Below, piece by piece: positions 231-7,243 of a stretch of DNA of 7,308 bases. Below the pieces are notes generated by a model, which was given only the letters and a program-made list of their open reading frames with translations, had not been told where the DNA came from and ran no database searches. Position numbers and translations under genes: made by a program. This stretch comes from Nitrospinota bacterium. Lineage in GTDB: Bacteria > Tectomicrobia > Entotheonellia > J063. How positions within the stretch are numbered: the first letter of the stretch is position 1; the number at the start of each line of letters is the position of its first letter. The stretch is taken from assembly GCA_003696125.1 (NCBI GenBank), contig RFHZ01000019.1:1-7308 (forward strand). The letters are read 5' to 3'.

Positions 231-309
231 AGCGCTTGCATCATGCCGTCAGGGAGAATCTTTAGGCGGGAATACCGGTAGTGGTGAGGATTTGACGAAG
301 GAGGGAACG

Positions 310-1185
310 ATGGAGGTAGGATGTCAATCGATGGTGACCCCGATCCGCAAGCTCTTGTTGAAGCATCCCCGGGAGGCTTTTCTCGATCCGGAAACGGTGC
401 AGGCACAGTGGCAGGCGCTCAACTATGTAGATTGCCCCGACTATGAAAAGGCTCTCCAGGAGTACGACCGCTTTGTGGCCCTGCTCCAGCAGTTCGATCT
501 GGAGATCTTTTTCCTTCCCCCTCATGCCCAGACCAATCTCGACTCCATCTATGTCCACGATCCCCTCCTCGTTGCCGCACAGGGAGCCATCCTCTGCAAC
601 ATGGGAAAAGCTGCCCGGCAGCACGAGCCGGCAGCAGCCGCAGCCTTTCTACAGGAACTGGGGGTGCCGGTGCTGGGAGCCATCAGCGGGGAGGGAAGAC
701 TGGAAGGGGGGGACGTGCTCTGGGTGGATGAGCATACCCTGGCCGTAGGGAGAGGGTATCGCACCAATGACGAAGGGATCCGGCAGTTACAGGCCCTCCT
801 CGCCGATACCATCCAGGAACTGGTGGTGGTCCCCCTTCCCCACTGGAACGGTCCCGGGGATGTGATGCACCTGATGTCGCTGATCAGCCTGATCGACCAC
901 GATCTGGCCGTCGTCTACTCTCGACTCCTCCCGGTACCCTTCCGCGAGTGGCTCCTGGCACGGGGAATCAGGCTGATCGAGATCCCGGATGAGGAATTCG
1001 AGAGCATGGGGTGCAATATCCTGGCCGTGGCTCCCCGCAAATGCATCATGCTGGAGGGAAACCCGCAGACCCGTCTGCGGCTGGAAGAGGCAGGGGTTGA
1101 GGTCTGGACCTATACCGGAGAAGAGATTTCGCGGAAAGGTGCCGGTGGCCCGACCTGTCTCACCCGTCCCCTGCTGCGGCGATAG
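310..1185 (+). CDS. Arginine deiminase / dimethylargininase (DDAH) superfamily hydrolase
   Basis: This 291-aa cytosolic protein belongs to the guanidine-modifying (pentein-fold) superfamily. Its members hydrolyse arginine or methylarginines to citrulline plus ammonia or an alkylamine through a cysteine adduct. Visible motifs, in order, are D78-S-I-Y-V-H83-D84 (substrate-binding loop), E132-G-G-D135, R151-T-N153, the probable catalytic H187 in DVMHLM, N236 in MGCN, and the probable nucleophile C283 in GGPTCLTRP at the C-terminus. The length fits DDAH-type enzymes (about 250-300 aa) better than classical arginine deiminases (about 400 aa). The ATG at 310 is chosen because AAGGAGGGA (299-307) lies just upstream; a TTG at 292 sits before that site and is unlikely. 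The region after the active-site His reads HLMSLISLID, not the HLDT common in arginine deiminases, so the exact substrate is uncertain. It is followed 31 bp later by the DUF4126 gene. Confidence 0.85.
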   Translation: MEVGCQSMVTPIRKLLLKHPREAFLDPETVQAQWQALNYVDCPDYEKALQEYDRFVALLQQFDLEIFFLPPHAQTNLDSIYVHDPLLVAAQGAILCNMGKAARQHEPAAAAAFLQELGVPVLGAISGEGRLEGGDVLWVDEHTLAVGRGYRTNDEGIRQLQALLADTIQELVVVPLPHWNGPGDVMHLMSLISLIDHDLAVVYSRLLPVPFREWLLARGIRLIEIPDEEFESMGCNILAVAPRKCIMLEGNPQTRLRLEEAGVEVWTYTGEEISRKGAGGPTCLTRPLLRR

Positions 1186-1216
1186 CGTACGGCATCGCTA
1201 AAAAGAGGAGAGTAGC

Positions 1217-1825
1217 ATGGAGACGCTACAGGCGTTGAGCCTGGCCATGGGCTCGGCCTGGGGATCCGGTATCAACCTGTACGCCACCGTGGCCATGCTC
1301 GGCCTGATGGGACGCCTGGGGGGTATCGAGCTTCCACCAGATCTGGCGATCCTGACCCATTCGGGAATCATCGCCGTGGCCGGGTTCATGTACGTGGTCG
1401 AATTTGTGGCGGACAAGATCCCGGGATTCGATTCCCTCTGGGACGCCATCCATACCTTTATTCGCATTCCGGCCGGTGCCATCCTGGCAGCCCGGGCCAT
1501 CGGCGACCTCCACCCTGCCCTGGAGATCATGGCCTACCTGGCCGGAGGAGGCATTGCTGCCCTCTCCCACACCACCAAAGCGGGCACGCGTGCCGCCATC
1601 AACCTGAGTCCGGAACCGGTCACCAACATTGCGGCCAGCCTCACCGAAGATCTGCTGACCGTGGGAGGCATCTGGACGGCCTTTAACTACCCTGCACTCC
1701 TGATCGGATGGGTAGGAGCCTTCCTGGTGCTGGCCATCTGGCTCCTCCCCAGATTCTGGCGCTTCTTCCTGGGCATCTTCCGCCGTGTGCAACGCCTGGT
1801 CAAAGGAGTAACGAGTAATGAGTAA
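1217..1825 (+). CDS. DUF4126 family integral membrane protein
   Basis: This 202-aa multi-pass membrane protein matches the DUF4126 pattern. It has S17-G-I-N20-L-Y near the N-terminus, an E62-F-V-A-D-K-I-P-G-F-D72 block followed by WD and H79/R83, then S117-H, K121, R125, N129-L-S-P-E-P-V-T-N137, and S141-L-T-E-D145. Hydrophobic segments lie at about 7-30, 48-63, 84-118 and 158-178, followed by a basic C-terminal tail. No biochemical role is established for the family, and the conserved polar residues within membrane segments suggest transport or enzymatic chemistry in the bilayer. AAGAGGAG (1203-1210) sits 6 bp before the ATG. The gene is probably co-transcribed with the deiminase-like gene. 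The last six codons (GVTSNE) and the stop lie partly inside a heptanucleotide tandem repeat, so the extreme C-terminus appears to have been supplied by repeat DNA. Confidence 0.85.
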   Translation: METLQALSLAMGSAWGSGINLYATVAMLGLMGRLGGIELPPDLAILTHSGIIAVAGFMYVVEFVADKIPGFDSLWDAIHTFIRIPAGAILAARAIGDLHPALEIMAYLAGGGIAALSHTTKAGTRAAINLSPEPVTNIAASLTEDLLTVGGIWTAFNYPALLIGWVGAFLVLAIWLLPRFWRFFLGIFRRVQRLVKGVTSNE

Positions 1826-1854
1826 TGAGGGATGAGGGATGAGGACTGAGTAAA
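1806..1854 (+). repeat. Heptanucleotide tandem repeat (7 units) spanning a stop codon
   Basis: Seven consecutive 7-bp units read GAGTAAC, GAGTAAT, GAGTAAT, GAGGGAT, GAGGGAT, GAGGACT and GAGTAAA. The array runs through the end of the DUF4126 gene (stop TAA at 1823-1825) into the spacer. Because 7 is not a multiple of 3, gain or loss of units downstream of the stop has no coding effect, while changes upstream would shift the frame of the last codons. Confidence 0.8.
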
Positions 1855-1855
1855 T

Positions 1856-1951
1856 CCTCTGTGCCTGGTTTATTATAGTCAAGTGTTCCGTGTAGCGCGT
1901 AGGGGCGCAGCGCGCTGCGCCCCTACCAGGCGTCCGGTGGCCTCTGTGCCT
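1856..1951 (+). repeat. 11-bp direct repeats flanking a palindrome
   Basis: CCTCTGTGCCT occurs exactly at 1856-1866 and again at 1941-1951. The 28-bp palindrome lies between them. The arrangement could be a small mobile-element remnant or two partly overlapping dispersed repeats. No transposase is present. The two copies are certain; their role is not. Confidence 0.5.
1899..1926. repeat. Perfect 28-bp palindrome in the convergent spacer
   Basis: The left arm GTAGGGGCGCAGCG (1899-1912) is followed immediately by its exact reverse complement at 1913-1926, with no spacer. In RNA this would form a very stable GC-rich hairpin on either strand. It lies between two convergent transcription units (DUF4126 gene on +, SDR gene on -), so it may stop or stabilise transcripts from both sides. 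There is no T tract on either side, so it is not a standard Rho-independent terminator. Similar palindromes occur as dispersed repeats in some Chloroflexota and cyanobacteria. Confidence 0.75.
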
Positions 1952-1955
1952 TATA

Positions 1956-1975
1956 TTCTCCGTGTCTCCGTGGTG
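1956..1975 (+). repeat. Dispersed repeat with internal 8-bp tandem
   Basis: CTCCGTGT (1958-1965) is followed directly by CTCCGTGG (1966-1973), inside a 20-bp stretch that recurs in reverse orientation at 7-26 with 17 of 20 identities. It lies about 16 bp beyond the stop codon of the SDR gene. It looks like a genome-wide intergenic repeat, not a site specific to this locus. Confidence 0.6.
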
Positions 1976-1991
1976 AAAATATGATGCTCTT

Positions 1992-2741
1992 CTAGTGGAA
2001 AATGCGGCCGGCATCGATGACCAGGGTCTGGCCGGTGGTGGTTTCGGTACGACAGAAGGTGACCACCTGCTCGGCCACGTCGTCCTTATCCGCTGCCCGC
2101 TTGAGCAATACGTTGCTGACCACCCGCTGGCGGTACTCAGGTGCCAGGTTCTCCGTCATGCGTGTCCCCTCCAGGTACCCGGGAGCCACGCAGTTGACCA
2201 GAACCTCTGGGGCCAGGGCCACGGCCATGCAGCGGGTGAGATGGATCAGGCCGGCCTTGGAGACGGCATAGGCGATGGAGGATCCGGTTGGAGCCAGACC
2301 GGCCACAGAAGCGATGTTGACGATCCTTCCCCGTCCCTGCCGCTTCATGAACGGTGCCACTGCCTTGATACAGAGCAGGGGACCGGTGAGGTTCACCGTA
2401 AGGATCTTGGACCAGTCCTCTAAGGTCAACGCATCCAGATCAGAGAAGGGGATCCACTTGTTATAGGCCGCATCGTTCACCAGGATATCGATCCGCCCGA
2501 ACTCCCGGATCACCTGATCGACCAGACCGTGTACCTGCTCGGGTTGGGTGACATCACACCGGACCGGTATCGCCCGCACCCCCAGCTCCTGCATCTCTGC
2601 ACTCACCTGCCTGGCCACCGCCTCCTGTTGGGCATAGACGACCACAATATGGGTACCCTGCTGCGCCAGGGCCCGGCAGATCCGTCGTCCCAATCCCCCG
2701 GTTCCCCCGGTGACCATGGCCACCGCATCCCGTAACTCCAT
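1992..2741 (-). CDS. Short-chain dehydrogenase/reductase (SDR), classical type
   Basis: This is a 249-aa cytosolic NAD(P)-dependent oxidoreductase of normal classical-SDR length. The Rossmann cofactor motif TGGTGGLG is at 11-18, D63 is in the RCDV adenine-contact region, and the NNAG-equivalent reads N89-D-A-A92. N117 is in VNLTG. The catalytic set is S145 (NIASVAG), Y158 and K162 (YAVSK), followed by APGYLEGT at 186-193. The C-terminus VIDAGRIFH resembles the usual VDGG ending with G replaced by A. FabG-like 3-oxoacyl-ACP reductases are the nearest well-known relatives, but family members use many substrates, so none is assigned. The AGGAGGGA ribosome site (2747-2754) lies in the 15-bp gap after the ligase stop codon, so the two genes are co-transcribed and the SDR probably works on the same pathway. 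Confidence 0.88.
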   Translation of the reverse strand: MELRDAVAMVTGGTGGLGRRICRALAQQGTHIVVVYAQQEAVARQVSAEMQELGVRAIPVRCDVTQPEQVHGLVDQVIREFGRIDILVNDAAYNKWIPFSDLDALTLEDWSKILTVNLTGPLLCIKAVAPFMKRQGRGRIVNIASVAGLAPTGSSIAYAVSKAGLIHLTRCMAVALAPEVLVNCVAPGYLEGTRMTENLAPEYRQRVVSNVLLKRAADKDDVAEQVVTFCRTETTTGQTLVIDAGRIFH

Positions 2742-2756
2742 GCCTTCCCTCCTCTT

Positions 2757-4148
2757 CTATGCCCGCTCAAAATAGCGGGCCCGTTCCCAGCTCGTCACCA
2801 CCGCATCGAACTTGCGCTGTTCGGTGCGGAAGAAGTGCAGGTAGTGATCGATGACCGCCTCTCCAAAGACCGTACGGGCCCAGGTGCTCTTCTCCAGCTC
2901 CTGTATGGCTTCAGGAAGGGTATGGGGTACCTGGGGCAGGTCCTGCGCCGCATAAACATCCCCCTCAAAGGCGGGTGGTGGCTCTATCCGGTTCTCGATC
3001 CCATCCAATCCTGCTGCCAATGTCGCGGCAAAGGCGAGATAGGGGTTGGCATCGGCCCCAGGAGCGCGACACTCTAACCGCAAGGAGGAACCGTGGCCGA
3101 CAATACGGAAGCCGGCGGTGCGGTTGTCATAGCTCCAGGCGATCCCGGTGGGAGCAAAGGAGCCGGCCACGTAGCGCTTGTACGAGGTGGGATAGGGGGC
3201 GTAGAAGGGGAAGATCTCCCGCAGGTGCGCCATCCAGCCGCCCAAAAACCAGCGGAAAAGCGGGGAAGCGTGCAGCGGTCCGATCGGCTCATCCCCGGGG
3301 AAGAGCGGCTCTGTTCCGGTCTGATCCCACAGGCTGGCGTGGAGGTGCATGCTGGAGCCGGCATAGCGCTGGTCCCACTTAGACATGAAGGTGACCGCAC
3401 ACCCCTGTTGCCAGGCGATCTCCTTGGCCGCATGCTTGTAAATGGCGTGTCGATCAGCCATCTCCAGGAAGTCGGCGTAGCGCAGGTTGATCTCCTGCTG
3501 ACCCGGTCCCCATTCCCCTTTGGAGAACTCGACCGGCACCCCGGAGCGCTCCAGGTGGTGGCGGATGGTGCCGATGAGAAACTCCTCCTTGGTCCCCTGC
3601 AGGATGTGATAGTCCTCGATATAGTGTCCGAGCGGTTCCAGGTCCAGGTACCGCTTGCGGGCCGCCTCTTCATAGGAGTCTTTGAAGACGTACAGCTCGA
3701 GCTCTGAGCCGCCCATGGCCACATACCCCTTTTCCGCTGCCCGGGCTATCTGGCGACGGAGGATGGTACGCGGCGCCACCTCGACCAGCACCTCCTCCTC
3801 TTCGTTATAGACATCGCACAGGACCAGGGCCGTCTTGTCCAGCCAGGTGGCCAGCCGCAGGGTCTGCAGGTCCGGGACGAGTCGAAAATCGCCATACCCC
3901 TGTGCCCAACTGGTAAAGGCATATCCCGGGACCGGGTCCATCTCCATGTCGCAGGCCAGGAGATAGTCACAGGCATGGATGGCATGGTCCAGCACCTCGT
4001 CCACAAAGAACCGTCCGGTGATCCGCTTGCCCAGCAGGCGCCCGTACAGGTCTGGGAAGACGGTGAGTACCGTCTCGATCTGTTCACGGGCCACCATCTC
4101 CCGTAGCGTTTCCACATTCAGCATACCCCGTACCGGCGAAGTCTCCAT
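2757..4148 (-). CDS. Glutamine-synthetase-family ligase (possible gamma-glutamyl-amine ligase)
   Basis: This 463-aa protein has the full glutamine synthetase catalytic fold. Metal and substrate residues are visible as E149/E151 (GSELELYVF), E212 and E219 (EWGPGQQEI), H268 (SSMHLHASLWD), R325 (SYKRYVAGSFAP), R343/R348 (DNRTAGFRI) and E359/R361 (RLECRAPGADANPYLAFAA). The adenylylation-tyrosine segment of housekeeping GlnA (NLYDLP-like) is absent, and the usual DGSS-type ammonia-side loop is replaced near 74-93 by GYAFTSWAQGYGDFRLVPD. This suggests a GS-like enzyme that joins glutamate, or a similar acid, to an amine in the manner of PuuA or the actinobacterial GlnA3/GlnA4 enzymes. That is inference, and ammonia cannot be excluded as substrate. 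A strong AAGGAGGATAA site precedes the ATG, and the SDR gene follows 15 bp after the stop. Confidence 0.87.
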   Translation of the reverse strand: METSPVRGMLNVETLREMVAREQIETVLTVFPDLYGRLLGKRITGRFFVDEVLDHAIHACDYLLACDMEMDPVPGYAFTSWAQGYGDFRLVPDLQTLRLATWLDKTALVLCDVYNEEEEVLVEVAPRTILRRQIARAAEKGYVAMGGSELELYVFKDSYEEAARKRYLDLEPLGHYIEDYHILQGTKEEFLIGTIRHHLERSGVPVEFSKGEWGPGQQEINLRYADFLEMADRHAIYKHAAKEIAWQQGCAVTFMSKWDQRYAGSSMHLHASLWDQTGTEPLFPGDEPIGPLHASPLFRWFLGGWMAHLREIFPFYAPYPTSYKRYVAGSFAPTGIAWSYDNRTAGFRIVGHGSSLRLECRAPGADANPYLAFAATLAAGLDGIENRIEPPPAFEGDVYAAQDLPQVPHTLPEAIQELEKSTWARTVFGEAVIDHYLHFFRTEQRKFDAVVTSWERARYFERA

Positions 4149-4689: not shown

Positions 4690-5034
4690 TTACCCGTTCT
4701 CCAGGATGTCCTCCAGTGTTGCGATAAGTGGCGGAAGGTCTGTCTCCACAGTATCCCATAACAGGTTGAGGTCCACCGCGTCATATCCGTGAATCAAGCG
4801 ATTACGCATGCCTACAATATCGGCCCAGGGGATTTGGGGATATTTGTCTCTCGTTGGTATGGATACTCGCGCTGCGGCCTCGCCAAGGATTTCCACCAAA
4901 TGGGTCAGGGCCAGTTGGAACATGCGGTCGGCATCCAGATCAGAGCGCGTTCGACCTCGTGTCATGGCATACGCTTCCCGCGCATAGTCCAGCATATGCC
5001 GCATACTGGTCCGATCATCACGCTTGCTCATCAT
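4690..5034 (-). CDS. hepT: HepT-like (DUF86) ribonuclease toxin
   Basis: This 114-aa helical HEPN-family protein carries the family's active-site motif RX4HXY as R77-N-R-L-I-H82-G-Y84. In characterised HepT/MntA pairs, R and H form the RNase active site, and the tyrosine is AMPylated by the partner MntA to switch the toxin off. All three residues are intact here, so the toxin should be active. Two consecutive ATGs exist (5034 and 5031). The first is chosen because AGAGG lies 6 bp before it, giving a 17-bp overlap with the end of mntA and implying translational coupling. A longer version starting at 5067 would lie further inside mntA and lacks support. The role could be stress response or phage defence; which one cannot be told from sequence. 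Confidence 0.88.
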   Translation of the reverse strand: MMSKRDDRTSMRHMLDYAREAYAMTRGRTRSDLDADRMFQLALTHLVEILGEAAARVSIPTRDKYPQIPWADIVGMRNRLIHGYDAVDLNLLWDTVETDLPPLIATLEDILENG

Positions 5035-5329
5035 AGACCGCCTCTGCTTCGCGAAGCACCTCTTCACGGAAATAGGGGCTGAGAAATCCGGCCGTATTCA
5101 GATCCACCTTTCGTCCAAGCAGGCGACTCAGTTCATTCTCGATCCTGGCAAAACCGATCAATCCCACCCGCGCACCCGGTTCGAACTCTACCAGTACATC
5201 TACATCGCTTTCAGGGCCAAAGTCCTCCCGTAGTACCGATCCGAACAGGGAAAGCCGGCGAATACGATGTCGCCGACAGAACCTGGCGATTTCTTCCCGC
5301 GGTATGTTGATTTTCCTGCCCATGTCCAT
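5018..5329 (-). CDS. mntA: MntA-like minimal nucleotidyltransferase antitoxin
   Basis: This 103-aa protein has the minimal nucleotidyltransferase signature GSX10DXD as G30-S31, then ten residues, then D42-V-D44. The third carboxylate is D76 in KVDLNT. In the HepT/MntA system this enzyme transfers AMP from ATP to the toxin's tyrosine and so neutralises it. All catalytic carboxylates are present. The N-terminus holds a basic helix (R16-x-x-R-R-H-R-I-R-R), typical of the family. ATGs at 5329 and 5323 are both possible; AGAGGTGG ends about 12 bp before the first. Its 3' end overlaps hepT, and a good promoter lies 51-80 bp upstream. Confidence 0.88.
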   Translation of the reverse strand: MDMGRKINIPREEIARFCRRHRIRRLSLFGSVLREDFGPESDVDVLVEFEPGARVGLIGFARIENELSRLLGRKVDLNTAGFLSPYFREEVLREAEAVYDEQA

Positions 5330-5571: not shown

Positions 5572-6678
5572 ATGCCGCTGACATCAAACCGTATCGCCGT
5601 CTCCGATCCCCTGGAGGCGATCGAGTACTGTTACCGGGAAAACCTGACCGATGGTCTCCCGGTGGTGCCCCCCACAGAGAAGCGGGTGCAGGAGTTTCTG
5701 GATGCGGTGGGACTCCCCCCTGACCACGTCATCGGCGAGGTGACGGAGCGGGCCCGGGTCATTACCGCGGAAAAGCTGGCCATCAACGCGGTCATGGCCG
5801 GCTGTCTTCCCCGGTACATGCCGGTGCTCATCGCCGCGGTGGAAGCCCTTTGCGATCCGGCCTTCAAGTTCAACCACCTGGCCAGCCTCGGCTCTCCCTG
5901 GCCGCTCCTCATCGTGAGCGGACCGGTGGTGAAGGAGTTAGAGATGAACTACGGGATGTACCTCTTCGGCTCGGGTAACCGGGCCAATGCCACCATCGGC
6001 CGGGCCATCAGCCTCTTACTCTGGAACTGCTGTGAGTTGCGACCCGATGCCATCCAGCGTGGCCAACTGGGTAGTCCCCAGCGCTATTCCTTCTGCATCG
6101 CCGAGAATCCGGATACGGCCTGGGAGGGGCTGAACGAATGGGAGGGATACCCCCGCCAGACCAGCACGGTCACCGTCCTCTCCGGGTACTACTTCTGCAT
6201 GGCCCGTACCGAGAGCAGCGTGGCTAAAGCTATTCTAGCCCCACTGGTCAATGCCATCAGCCGGCATGAGTTCTCGCGAGGATGCTACGTGGTGATCATC
6301 CCTCCCAATCTGGAAGCGCTCTTTGTCGAGCAGGGGTGGAGCAAGCGAGACATCCGCGACTATCTCTTTGCCCACTGCAAACGATCGGTCAAGGATCTGA
6401 AAGAGGATGGACGCTGGGGACGGCTCACCTCCACCTTTGTGGGGGACCTCAAGGACCTGATCCCGGTAGAGCCGGGAGATGAAGAGCGGTGGGTCTATCT
6501 CTTCCGGGAAAATCCTGAACTCGACCCTGCTGTCTTTCACGAAGGCGCGCTGAAACGGCGGGCCGATGTCCTGATCGTAGCCGCCGGAGGGGATGCGGGA
6601 ATCGCCATGGGCTTTTACCAGCCCTATAGCCAGTCTACCAACCCGGTGACCAAACCAATAACCCTTCCCCGACAGTAG
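5572..6678 (+). CDS. Conserved protein of unknown function, partner of UGSC selenoprotein
   Basis: This 368-aa, apparently soluble protein has no signal peptide and no obvious membrane segment. I do not recognise an enzymatic family. Distinctive stretches are T26-D-G-L-P-V-V-P-P-T35, N72-A-V-M-A-G-C78, the glycine- and asparagine-rich G133-S-G-N-R-A-N-A-T-I-G-R144, F174-C-I-A-E-N179, and a C-terminal V333-L-I-V-A-A-G-G-D-A-G block followed by N357-P-V-T-K-P-I. Proteins with the DGLPVVPPT segment recur beside or fused to UGSC-type proteins, as I recall it, and that should be checked. Ten cysteines are present, including a C153-C154 pair. The ATG at 5572 is chosen because AAGGAG (5561-5566) lies 5 bp upstream; the frame remains open to a GTG at 5491, but that extra segment is polar and repetitive and overlaps the predicted promoter. 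The selenoprotein gene begins 19 bp after the stop, so the two form an operon. Confidence 0.82.
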   Translation: MPLTSNRIAVSDPLEAIEYCYRENLTDGLPVVPPTEKRVQEFLDAVGLPPDHVIGEVTERARVITAEKLAINAVMAGCLPRYMPVLIAAVEALCDPAFKFNHLASLGSPWPLLIVSGPVVKELEMNYGMYLFGSGNRANATIGRAISLLLWNCCELRPDAIQRGQLGSPQRYSFCIAENPDTAWEGLNEWEGYPRQTSTVTVLSGYYFCMARTESSVAKAILAPLVNAISRHEFSRGCYVVIIPPNLEALFVEQGWSKRDIRDYLFAHCKRSVKDLKEDGRWGRLTSTFVGDLKDLIPVEPGDEERWVYLFRENPELDPAVFHEGALKRRADVLIVAAGGDAGIAMGFYQPYSQSTNPVTKPITLPRQ

Positions 6679-6697
6679 AAGAGTGAGGAGGTGCCAG

Positions 6698-7243
6698 ATG
6701 ACCTTTGTCTTTCTCGATCCACGACAGGGACCCAAGTATGACCTGCTGGAACCGGCGCCCCGGCTCCCTTCCCTCAAGGGAAAACGGCTCGGCATCCTCT
6801 GGAATAATCGTCCCGGCGGGGATAGGCTCCTGCGCTATGTGGCCGAGATCTTACACCAGAAATACGAGCTGGCCGAGATCTATTTCACCAAGAAGCCCTT
6901 CATCGGGAACGAAGCACCCCCAGAGGTCCTGGAGGATCTGGCCTCCCGGGTTGATGCCGCCGTGGTCGGCCTGGGAGACTGAGGTTCCTGCACATCGGGC
7001 AGTGTGCTCGATGCGGTGAACCTGGAACGGAGAGGCATCCCGGCCGCCGTGGTCGGCCTGGACAAGCTGGTGCAGACCACAGGTAGAGGCATGGCACGGG
7101 CGCAGGGGTATCCGGGGATGCGCTTTGCCGTGATCCCTTATGCGACGAGCGACTGGGGAGGGGCGGCGCAGGAGGAGGAGTTGCGGGCCAAAGCCCAGGC
7201 GGCTGCCCCACAGGTCGAGCGTATCCTGACCGCCGAGTCATAG
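6698..7243 (+). CDS. UGSC-family selenoprotein (UGA at residue 95 read as Sec)
   Basis: This protein is 181 residues long if the in-frame TGA at 6980-6982 is read as selenocysteine. The frame then continues without break to TAG at 7241-7243. The sequence around it is GLGD-U95-G-S-C98-T, which is the defining motif of the UGSC (seleno)protein family. U95 and C98 make a U-x-x-C redox pair, like the CxxC of thioredoxin-type proteins. The N-terminal half has a short strand at 2-6, L31-G-I-L-W-N-N, and V86-A-A-V-V leading into the motif; the second half resumes with A109-A-A-V-V-G-L-type strands, consistent with one alpha/beta domain. GAGGAGGTG (6684-6692) precedes the ATG. Without recoding the product would stop at 94 residues, just before the motif. 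A SECIS-like hairpin starts at the UGA. The biochemical role is unknown; a redox function is inferred from the Sec motif. Confidence 0.88.
6980..6982 (+). other. In-frame UGA selenocysteine codon
   Basis: TGA sits between GGA-GAC (Gly-Asp) and GGT-TCC-TGC (Gly-Ser-Cys). Amino acid character and codon use are the same on both sides, and the residue falls exactly where UGSC-family proteins carry Sec or Cys. This excludes a random nonsense mutation as the simplest reading. Confidence 0.87.
6982..7023 (+). promoter_or_regulatory. Bacterial SECIS-like stem-loop
   Basis: The lower stem pairs 6982-6987 (AGGTTC) with 7018-7023 (GAACCT), 6 bp. An internal loop follows (6988-6992 against 7014-7017). 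The upper stem pairs 6993-7000 (CATCGGGC) with 7006-7013 (GCTCGATG), 8 bp including one G-U pair. The apical loop is AGTGT (7001-7005). Eighteen nucleotides separate the UGA from the loop, inside the 16-37 nt range known for bacterial SECIS elements, and a G stands at loop position 2 as required. The GC-AGTGT-GC tip resembles the tip of the E. coli fdhF element. It would bind SelB and deliver Sec-tRNA. All of it lies within the coding sequence. Confidence 0.8.

Follow-up and report, generated by a model that had tools for sequence, protein, structure and literature searches.

The window analysed here, a stretch of 7,308 nucleotides from a Nitrospinota bacterium, carries near its end a gene of the UGSC selenoprotein family, preceded on the same strand by a gene of an unnamed protein family. 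The UGSC reading frame is single and runs from the ATG at 6698 to the stop codon at 7241–7243 with one internal TGA, at 6980–6982, and the read-through product of 181 residues spells ...GLGD-U-GSCTSGSVLD... around selenocysteine 95 (Sec95). Table 11 splits this frame into a 94-residue piece (99 residues if the upstream GTG at 6683 is taken as the start) and an apparently separate 79-residue ORF at 7004–7243, as an earlier note on this DNA had observed, and the continuous frame and D-U-G-S-C-T signature that the note proposed are borne out by the translation. The features of the locus are the following.

5572–6678, plus strand: partner gene, 368 aa, of an unnamed family without a Pfam or NCBIfam match, adjoining or fused with UGSC in relatives
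6686–6693, plus strand: purine-rich Shine–Dalgarno-like sequence (gaggaggtg) of the UGSC gene, 5' of the ATG at 6698, from direct reading
6698–7243, plus strand: UGSC selenoprotein gene, 181 residues including Sec95 and Cys98, from sequence reading and the PF24696 match
6980–6982, plus strand: UGA codon, almost certainly decoded as Sec95; TGA in homologues
6989–6991, plus strand: TGC encoding Cys98, candidate resolving cysteine of U-x-x-C, invariant in 43 aligned homologues
6995–7011, plus strand: bacterial SECIS-like hairpin, 6995–7001 paired with 7005–7011 around a G-U-G loop, with a core of 6996–7000 and 7006–7010

The read-through product matches PF24696, the Pfam UGSC family, over residues 6–178 (E = 2.2e-44; 152 bits against a gathering cut-off of 25), and because this match covers both flanks of the TGA, the frame is not due to chance. 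The NCBIfam model NF041046, "UGSC family (seleno)protein", is matched at 8.5e-31 with 107 bits, which is under its equivalog cut-off of 125, so the gene is assigned to the PF24696 family and not to the NF041046 equivalog. The window gene adds a member to an already known selenoprotein family, with the Sec-Gly-Ser-Cys signature present and its Sec encoded by TGA. It has in common with other members the D-U-G-S-C signature, the length, and relatives fused to a second domain; in contrast to most of them, it is without the His-Pro motif (Tyr148-Ala149 instead) and without the Phe at position 124, and it represents a divergent branch of the family. Sec95 and Cys98, which the note had paired in a U-x-x-C redox centre, are both invariant across the 43 homologues, and a putative redox pair is a reasonable reading of them. 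The 2008 GOS survey (PMC2398784) and a 2026 review (PMC13188914) record the family without a function, in agreement with the note's statement that its reaction is undescribed; the survey places UGSC among the commonest selenoproteins of the GOS aquatic samples and reports 21 homologues of the Cys type (PMC2398784).

It is virtually certain, on comparative grounds, that the gene decodes UGA as selenocysteine and is a real selenoprotein gene. Table 11 reads the TGA as a stop, which would mean that a nonsense mutation has interrupted the gene or that the locus is a split pseudogene, but the codon is common to all homologues checked, which leaves that reading a negligible probability. Across 193 genomes, 46 UGSC copies extend across the Sec codon, and each (46/46) contains one TGA and then coding sequence; the three copies without a stop are fragments that end short of this codon. 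GTDB contigs yielded 584 confirmed UGSC relatives. The Sec codon was checked in the best 80 of these 584, which come from Pseudomonadota, Chloroflexota, Rokuibacteriota and a small number of further phyla, and in 80 of 80 it is TGA with coding sequence continuing downstream. None of the homologues checked ends at codon 95, so that the outcome named by the earlier note as refuting, reading frames that end there, did not occur. One locus, L100, has UGAC instead of UGSC.

The Sec machinery of the source genome also speaks against a true stop. selA, selB, selD and tRNA-Sec, which the note had named as the genes to look for, were all found in this genome bin, which has a contamination of 8%: selB scores 385.9 bits, above its cut-off, and tRNA-Sec 74 bits with the anticodon UCA, while selA is incomplete, in two pieces at contig ends, and selD, which has its own in-frame TGA, is incomplete where a contig end cuts the piece. 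The same genome has four UGSC genes (the window gene and three more), each with exactly one in-frame TGA. In the 14 genomes whose UGSC gene is intact, selB is always above its cut-off, compared with 89 of the 193 genomes overall.

Bacterial selenoprotein genes are recognized by an in-frame UGA with a hairpin within about 40 nt, and both are found here, the hairpin starting about 12 nt 3' of the UGA, in frame. In a gap-free alignment of the 60 nt from the TGA onward in 107 genes, stem columns 16–22 and 26–32 (6995–7001 and 7005–7011) are paired in 97.3% of cells, and the five core pairs are intact in 107/107 genes, with compensatory changes. Stem cells altered on both sides number 57, compared with 16.2 in shuffles, and none of 500 shuffles reaches 57; when the partner strand is slid as a control, stem pairing drops to 14–61%. 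RNAalifold recovers the identical hairpin core unprompted, while an Rfam scan of the window gave a single chance match below the cut-off. This covariation over 107 genes is a further point against the true-stop reading.

The highest mutual information among column pairs after the TGA belongs to pair 19–29 (U-A in 67 genes, G-U in 38 and A-U in 2, with no exception), which joins position 1 of codon 101 to position 2 of codon 104. In the protein, residue 104 is His or Gln when residue 101 is Cys or Trp, and Leu when residue 101 is Gly or Ser; no other combinations occur, because the two codons must pair in the mRNA, and the hairpin therefore accounts for an odd restriction in the protein. On a tree built without the hairpin-pair columns concerned, the three core pairs that vary required a minimum of 4, 4, and 7 changes, or at least 15 state changes in total. 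State changes this few mean that the doubly changed cells are not independent, and a count of 40 "independent" double changes at pair 19–29 was rejected, the tree minimum at that pair being 4 changes. At the comparative level, these data demonstrate that the in-frame hairpin helps the UGA to be decoded as selenocysteine.

Between the stop codon of the partner gene and the UGSC ATG at 6698 there are 19 nt. In 69 of 80 loci, UGSC has a partner homologue nearby, almost always upstream and on the same strand; in 7 of the 11 loci without a nearby partner the contig ends first, so that the partner is present in 69 of 73 evaluable loci, the true exceptions, with enough flank but no partner nearby, being L127, L131, L138, and L146. 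The partner is fused behind UGSC in a single chain in L003, L004, L032, and L053, whereas three partner-type genes surround one UGSC gene in L100 and L101. Among the 193 genomes, the partner occurs in 14, the very same 14 whose UGSC gene is intact; a fifteenth UGSC match is a fragment of 64 residues located at the end of a contig. In terms of gene content, this distribution establishes the partner as an obligate companion of UGSC, and the two proteins belong together. The 2008 survey describes a fusion of UGSC with "Unknown_1" (PMC2398784), which is probably the partner family.

Asp27, Cys78, Arg144, Asn152, Glu178, and Trp184 are invariant in the partner. The protein has no match in Pfam, NCBIfam or the PDB sequences, and a search of Pfam at a lax cut-off and of the PDB sequences returned only chance-level matches to designed proteins and unrelated domains; no homologues were found in viral contigs. 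Its AF2 model has a pLDDT of 87, with weak fold matches (best Foldseek E of 1e-3; VIA Z of at most 6.4). Class I fumarase and cyclic-amide-hydrolase ("Toblerone") folds held the top Foldseek ranks, and since these matches are weak, no such claim is made.

The AF2 model of UGSC, built with 43 sequences (pLDDT 91.6; pTM 0.87), consists of five successive strand–helix units and contains no beta hairpin, a predicted (beta-alpha)5 fold in which Sec95 resides between strand 87–93 and helix 96–111. Its fold matches in the PDB are generic flavodoxin-like or Rossmann-like, B12-binding-like, and lumazine-synthase folds; thioredoxin is absent among the fold matches listed, an absence that alone excludes nothing. 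UGSC is classed as Trx-like in the literature (PMC2398784; PMC13188914), and it has U-x-x-C in common with thioredoxin-like selenoproteins. In contrast, the thioredoxin arrangement of beta-alpha-beta followed by beta-beta-alpha differs from the alternating (beta-alpha)5 prediction, and the model does not support a thioredoxin fold. UGSC might nevertheless act in the manner of thioredoxin, the view of the 2008 survey, as a general thiol-disulfide oxidoreductase that reduces disulfides through U-x-x-C, with the partner as its client or redox relay; the motif with its invariant Cys98, the Trx-like listing and the invariant Cys78 of the partner would allow this. We consider this rather unlikely, given the confident model and the PDB matches just described, a profile similarity that is to GrdB, and the several paralogues per genome with their own partners, which would better fit a substrate-specific enzyme.

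Comparison of UGSC by HHalign with nine proteins of the GrdB family (PF07355), the selenoprotein B of glycine reductase, gave 92.5% (E = 4.9e-7; 94 columns), with Sec aligned on Sec and PHP on PHP, compared with at most 0.8% for 30 column shuffles and at most 2.2% for 33 unrelated decoy families. The match does not extend beyond the Sec half, and the U-x-x-C motif contributes part of it; with the motif masked, the value is still 44–57%. With HMMER, UGSC has no PF07355 match, and PF24696 is the sole family at E ≤ 0.001. We regard the Sec half of UGSC and the Sec domain of GrdB as distantly homologous, without placing UGSC in PF07355. UGSC and GrdB have a common Sec alignment, in which U-x-x-C is followed by a helix, a strand, and the PHP motif; they differ in length (181 aa compared with about 440), and the partner shows no relation to the pyruvoyl subunit of GrdE type (PF09338), with no PF09338 match and an HHalign value of 0.1% in a comparison with GrdE. 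D-proline reductase, PrdA/PrdB, is likewise a selenoenzyme of two components, with U-x-x-C in one subunit (PMC13188914), but the direct profile match of UGSC to PrdB-like proteins is weak (3.6%), whereas GrdB matches them at 99.6%, and PrdB-like proteins were rejected as the nearest relatives of UGSC.

Two side observations concern these reductase families. The PF07355 matches of ten full-length GrdB genes (L054, L055, L056, L057, L058, L066, L067, L068, L071, and L072) stop exactly one codon before the TGA, so that the PF07355 model seems to be without the Sec domain; this gap probably goes back to gene models that were themselves truncated. Further selenoproteins of their genomes are the small PrdB-like proteins of L060, L061, L063, L064, L069, and L073, whose genes have a TGA in frame within a U-P-[VLMA]-C motif.

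In ten Chloroflexota/SAR202 loci (L103–L107, L109, L111, L113, L115, and L116), as far as the contigs extend, UGSC lies in a common operon with genes for a phosphoribosyltransferase, a metallo-beta-lactamase fold protein, a hydroxyisobutyrate-dehydrogenase-like protein, the partner, and UGSC, followed by NuoE-like, NuoF-like, and formate-dehydrogenase-alpha-like proteins and a ferredoxin reductase. Through this operon, UGSC and its partner are joined to a formate-dehydrogenase-like module that is NAD-linked, a catabolic or redox context that favours the enzyme proposed below. Outside SAR202, the UGSC neighbours are diverse, with no recurring theme except a few transporters and amidotransferases. 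Genomes of the window's class have 4–8 UGSC copies (4 in the source genome), and such paralogue sets look like substrate-specific enzymes rather than a single housekeeping thiol reductase.

The obligate partner and the GrdB kinship together suggest a two-part selenium enzyme, not a thioredoxin, with the chemistry of glycine and proline reductases, summarized in part in PMC13188914, as the template. UGSC and its partner would form a complex that works as a single enzyme, in which UGSC supplies the selenolate of Sec95, a residue predicted to open a helix directly after a strand. The partner, with its one invariant Cys and several invariant Arg, Asp, Glu, and Asn residues, would bind an (anionic) substrate and present it to the selenolate, whose attack would lead to reductive cleavage of a substrate bond, and Cys98 would then resolve the selenium intermediate. 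Electrons would come from NAD(P)H via thiols and, in SAR202, perhaps via the NuoE/NuoF/formate-dehydrogenase-like module of the UGSC operon, and the paralogous pairs (4 in the source genome, up to 8) would be enzymes for different substrates. Since the partner is not a GrdE homologue, the pyruvoyl chemistry of Grd and Prd is not simply transferable. Taken as a whole, the proposal that Sec-decoded UGSC and its partner constitute one two-component, Grd/Prd-like selenoenzyme with this mechanism stands, in our judgement, at even chances. The half-length GrdB match, the weak PrdB-like and partner-fold matches, the varied neighbours outside SAR202, the four loci that lack a nearby partner and the contamination of the bin weigh against it.

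Alternatively, UGSC could carry or transfer a group (selenium, sulfur or alkyl), with Sec95 as a covalent carrier as in GrdA, rather than the attacking residue of a reductase, and the true active site in the partner. The small size of UGSC, its fusion to the partner in some relatives, and the presence in L100 and L101 of one UGSC gene for three partner genes would suit a carrier; on the other hand, among the GrdB and PrdB-like proteins compared, the similarity is to GrdB, and we regard this alternative as improbable.

The two-component enzyme of UGSC and partner may, more tentatively and with somewhat less than even expectation, define a new class of Sec enzyme, in which a reduced GrdB-type Sec domain is combined with a substrate subunit of a family outside Pfam, occurring in the window's class as 4–8 variants per genome for different substrates and distributed over Rokubacteria, SAR202 Chloroflexota, Burkholderiales, and others. 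The partner gene, the selenocysteine-insertion hairpin, and the GrdB relation go beyond the earlier note, and neither the obligate partner link, the GrdB relation nor the codon-pair coupling was found in the open-licence papers searched. With an obligate partner and kinship to glycine reductase, what was "some redox protein" becomes the proposal of a two-subunit enzyme that can be tested, in a family whose genes automatic gene calling keeps cutting in two.

Elsewhere in the window, positions 301–4148 encode an arginine deiminase/dimethylargininase-like protein, a DUF4126 membrane protein, an SDR, and a glutamine-synthetase-like protein of 463 aa that scores far under the GlnA cut-offs; these genes are perhaps a gamma-glutamyl ligase set. 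On the minus strand at 4690–5329, a HepT-like HEPN gene overlaps an MNT nucleotidyltransferase gene, as in type VII toxin–antitoxin pairs.
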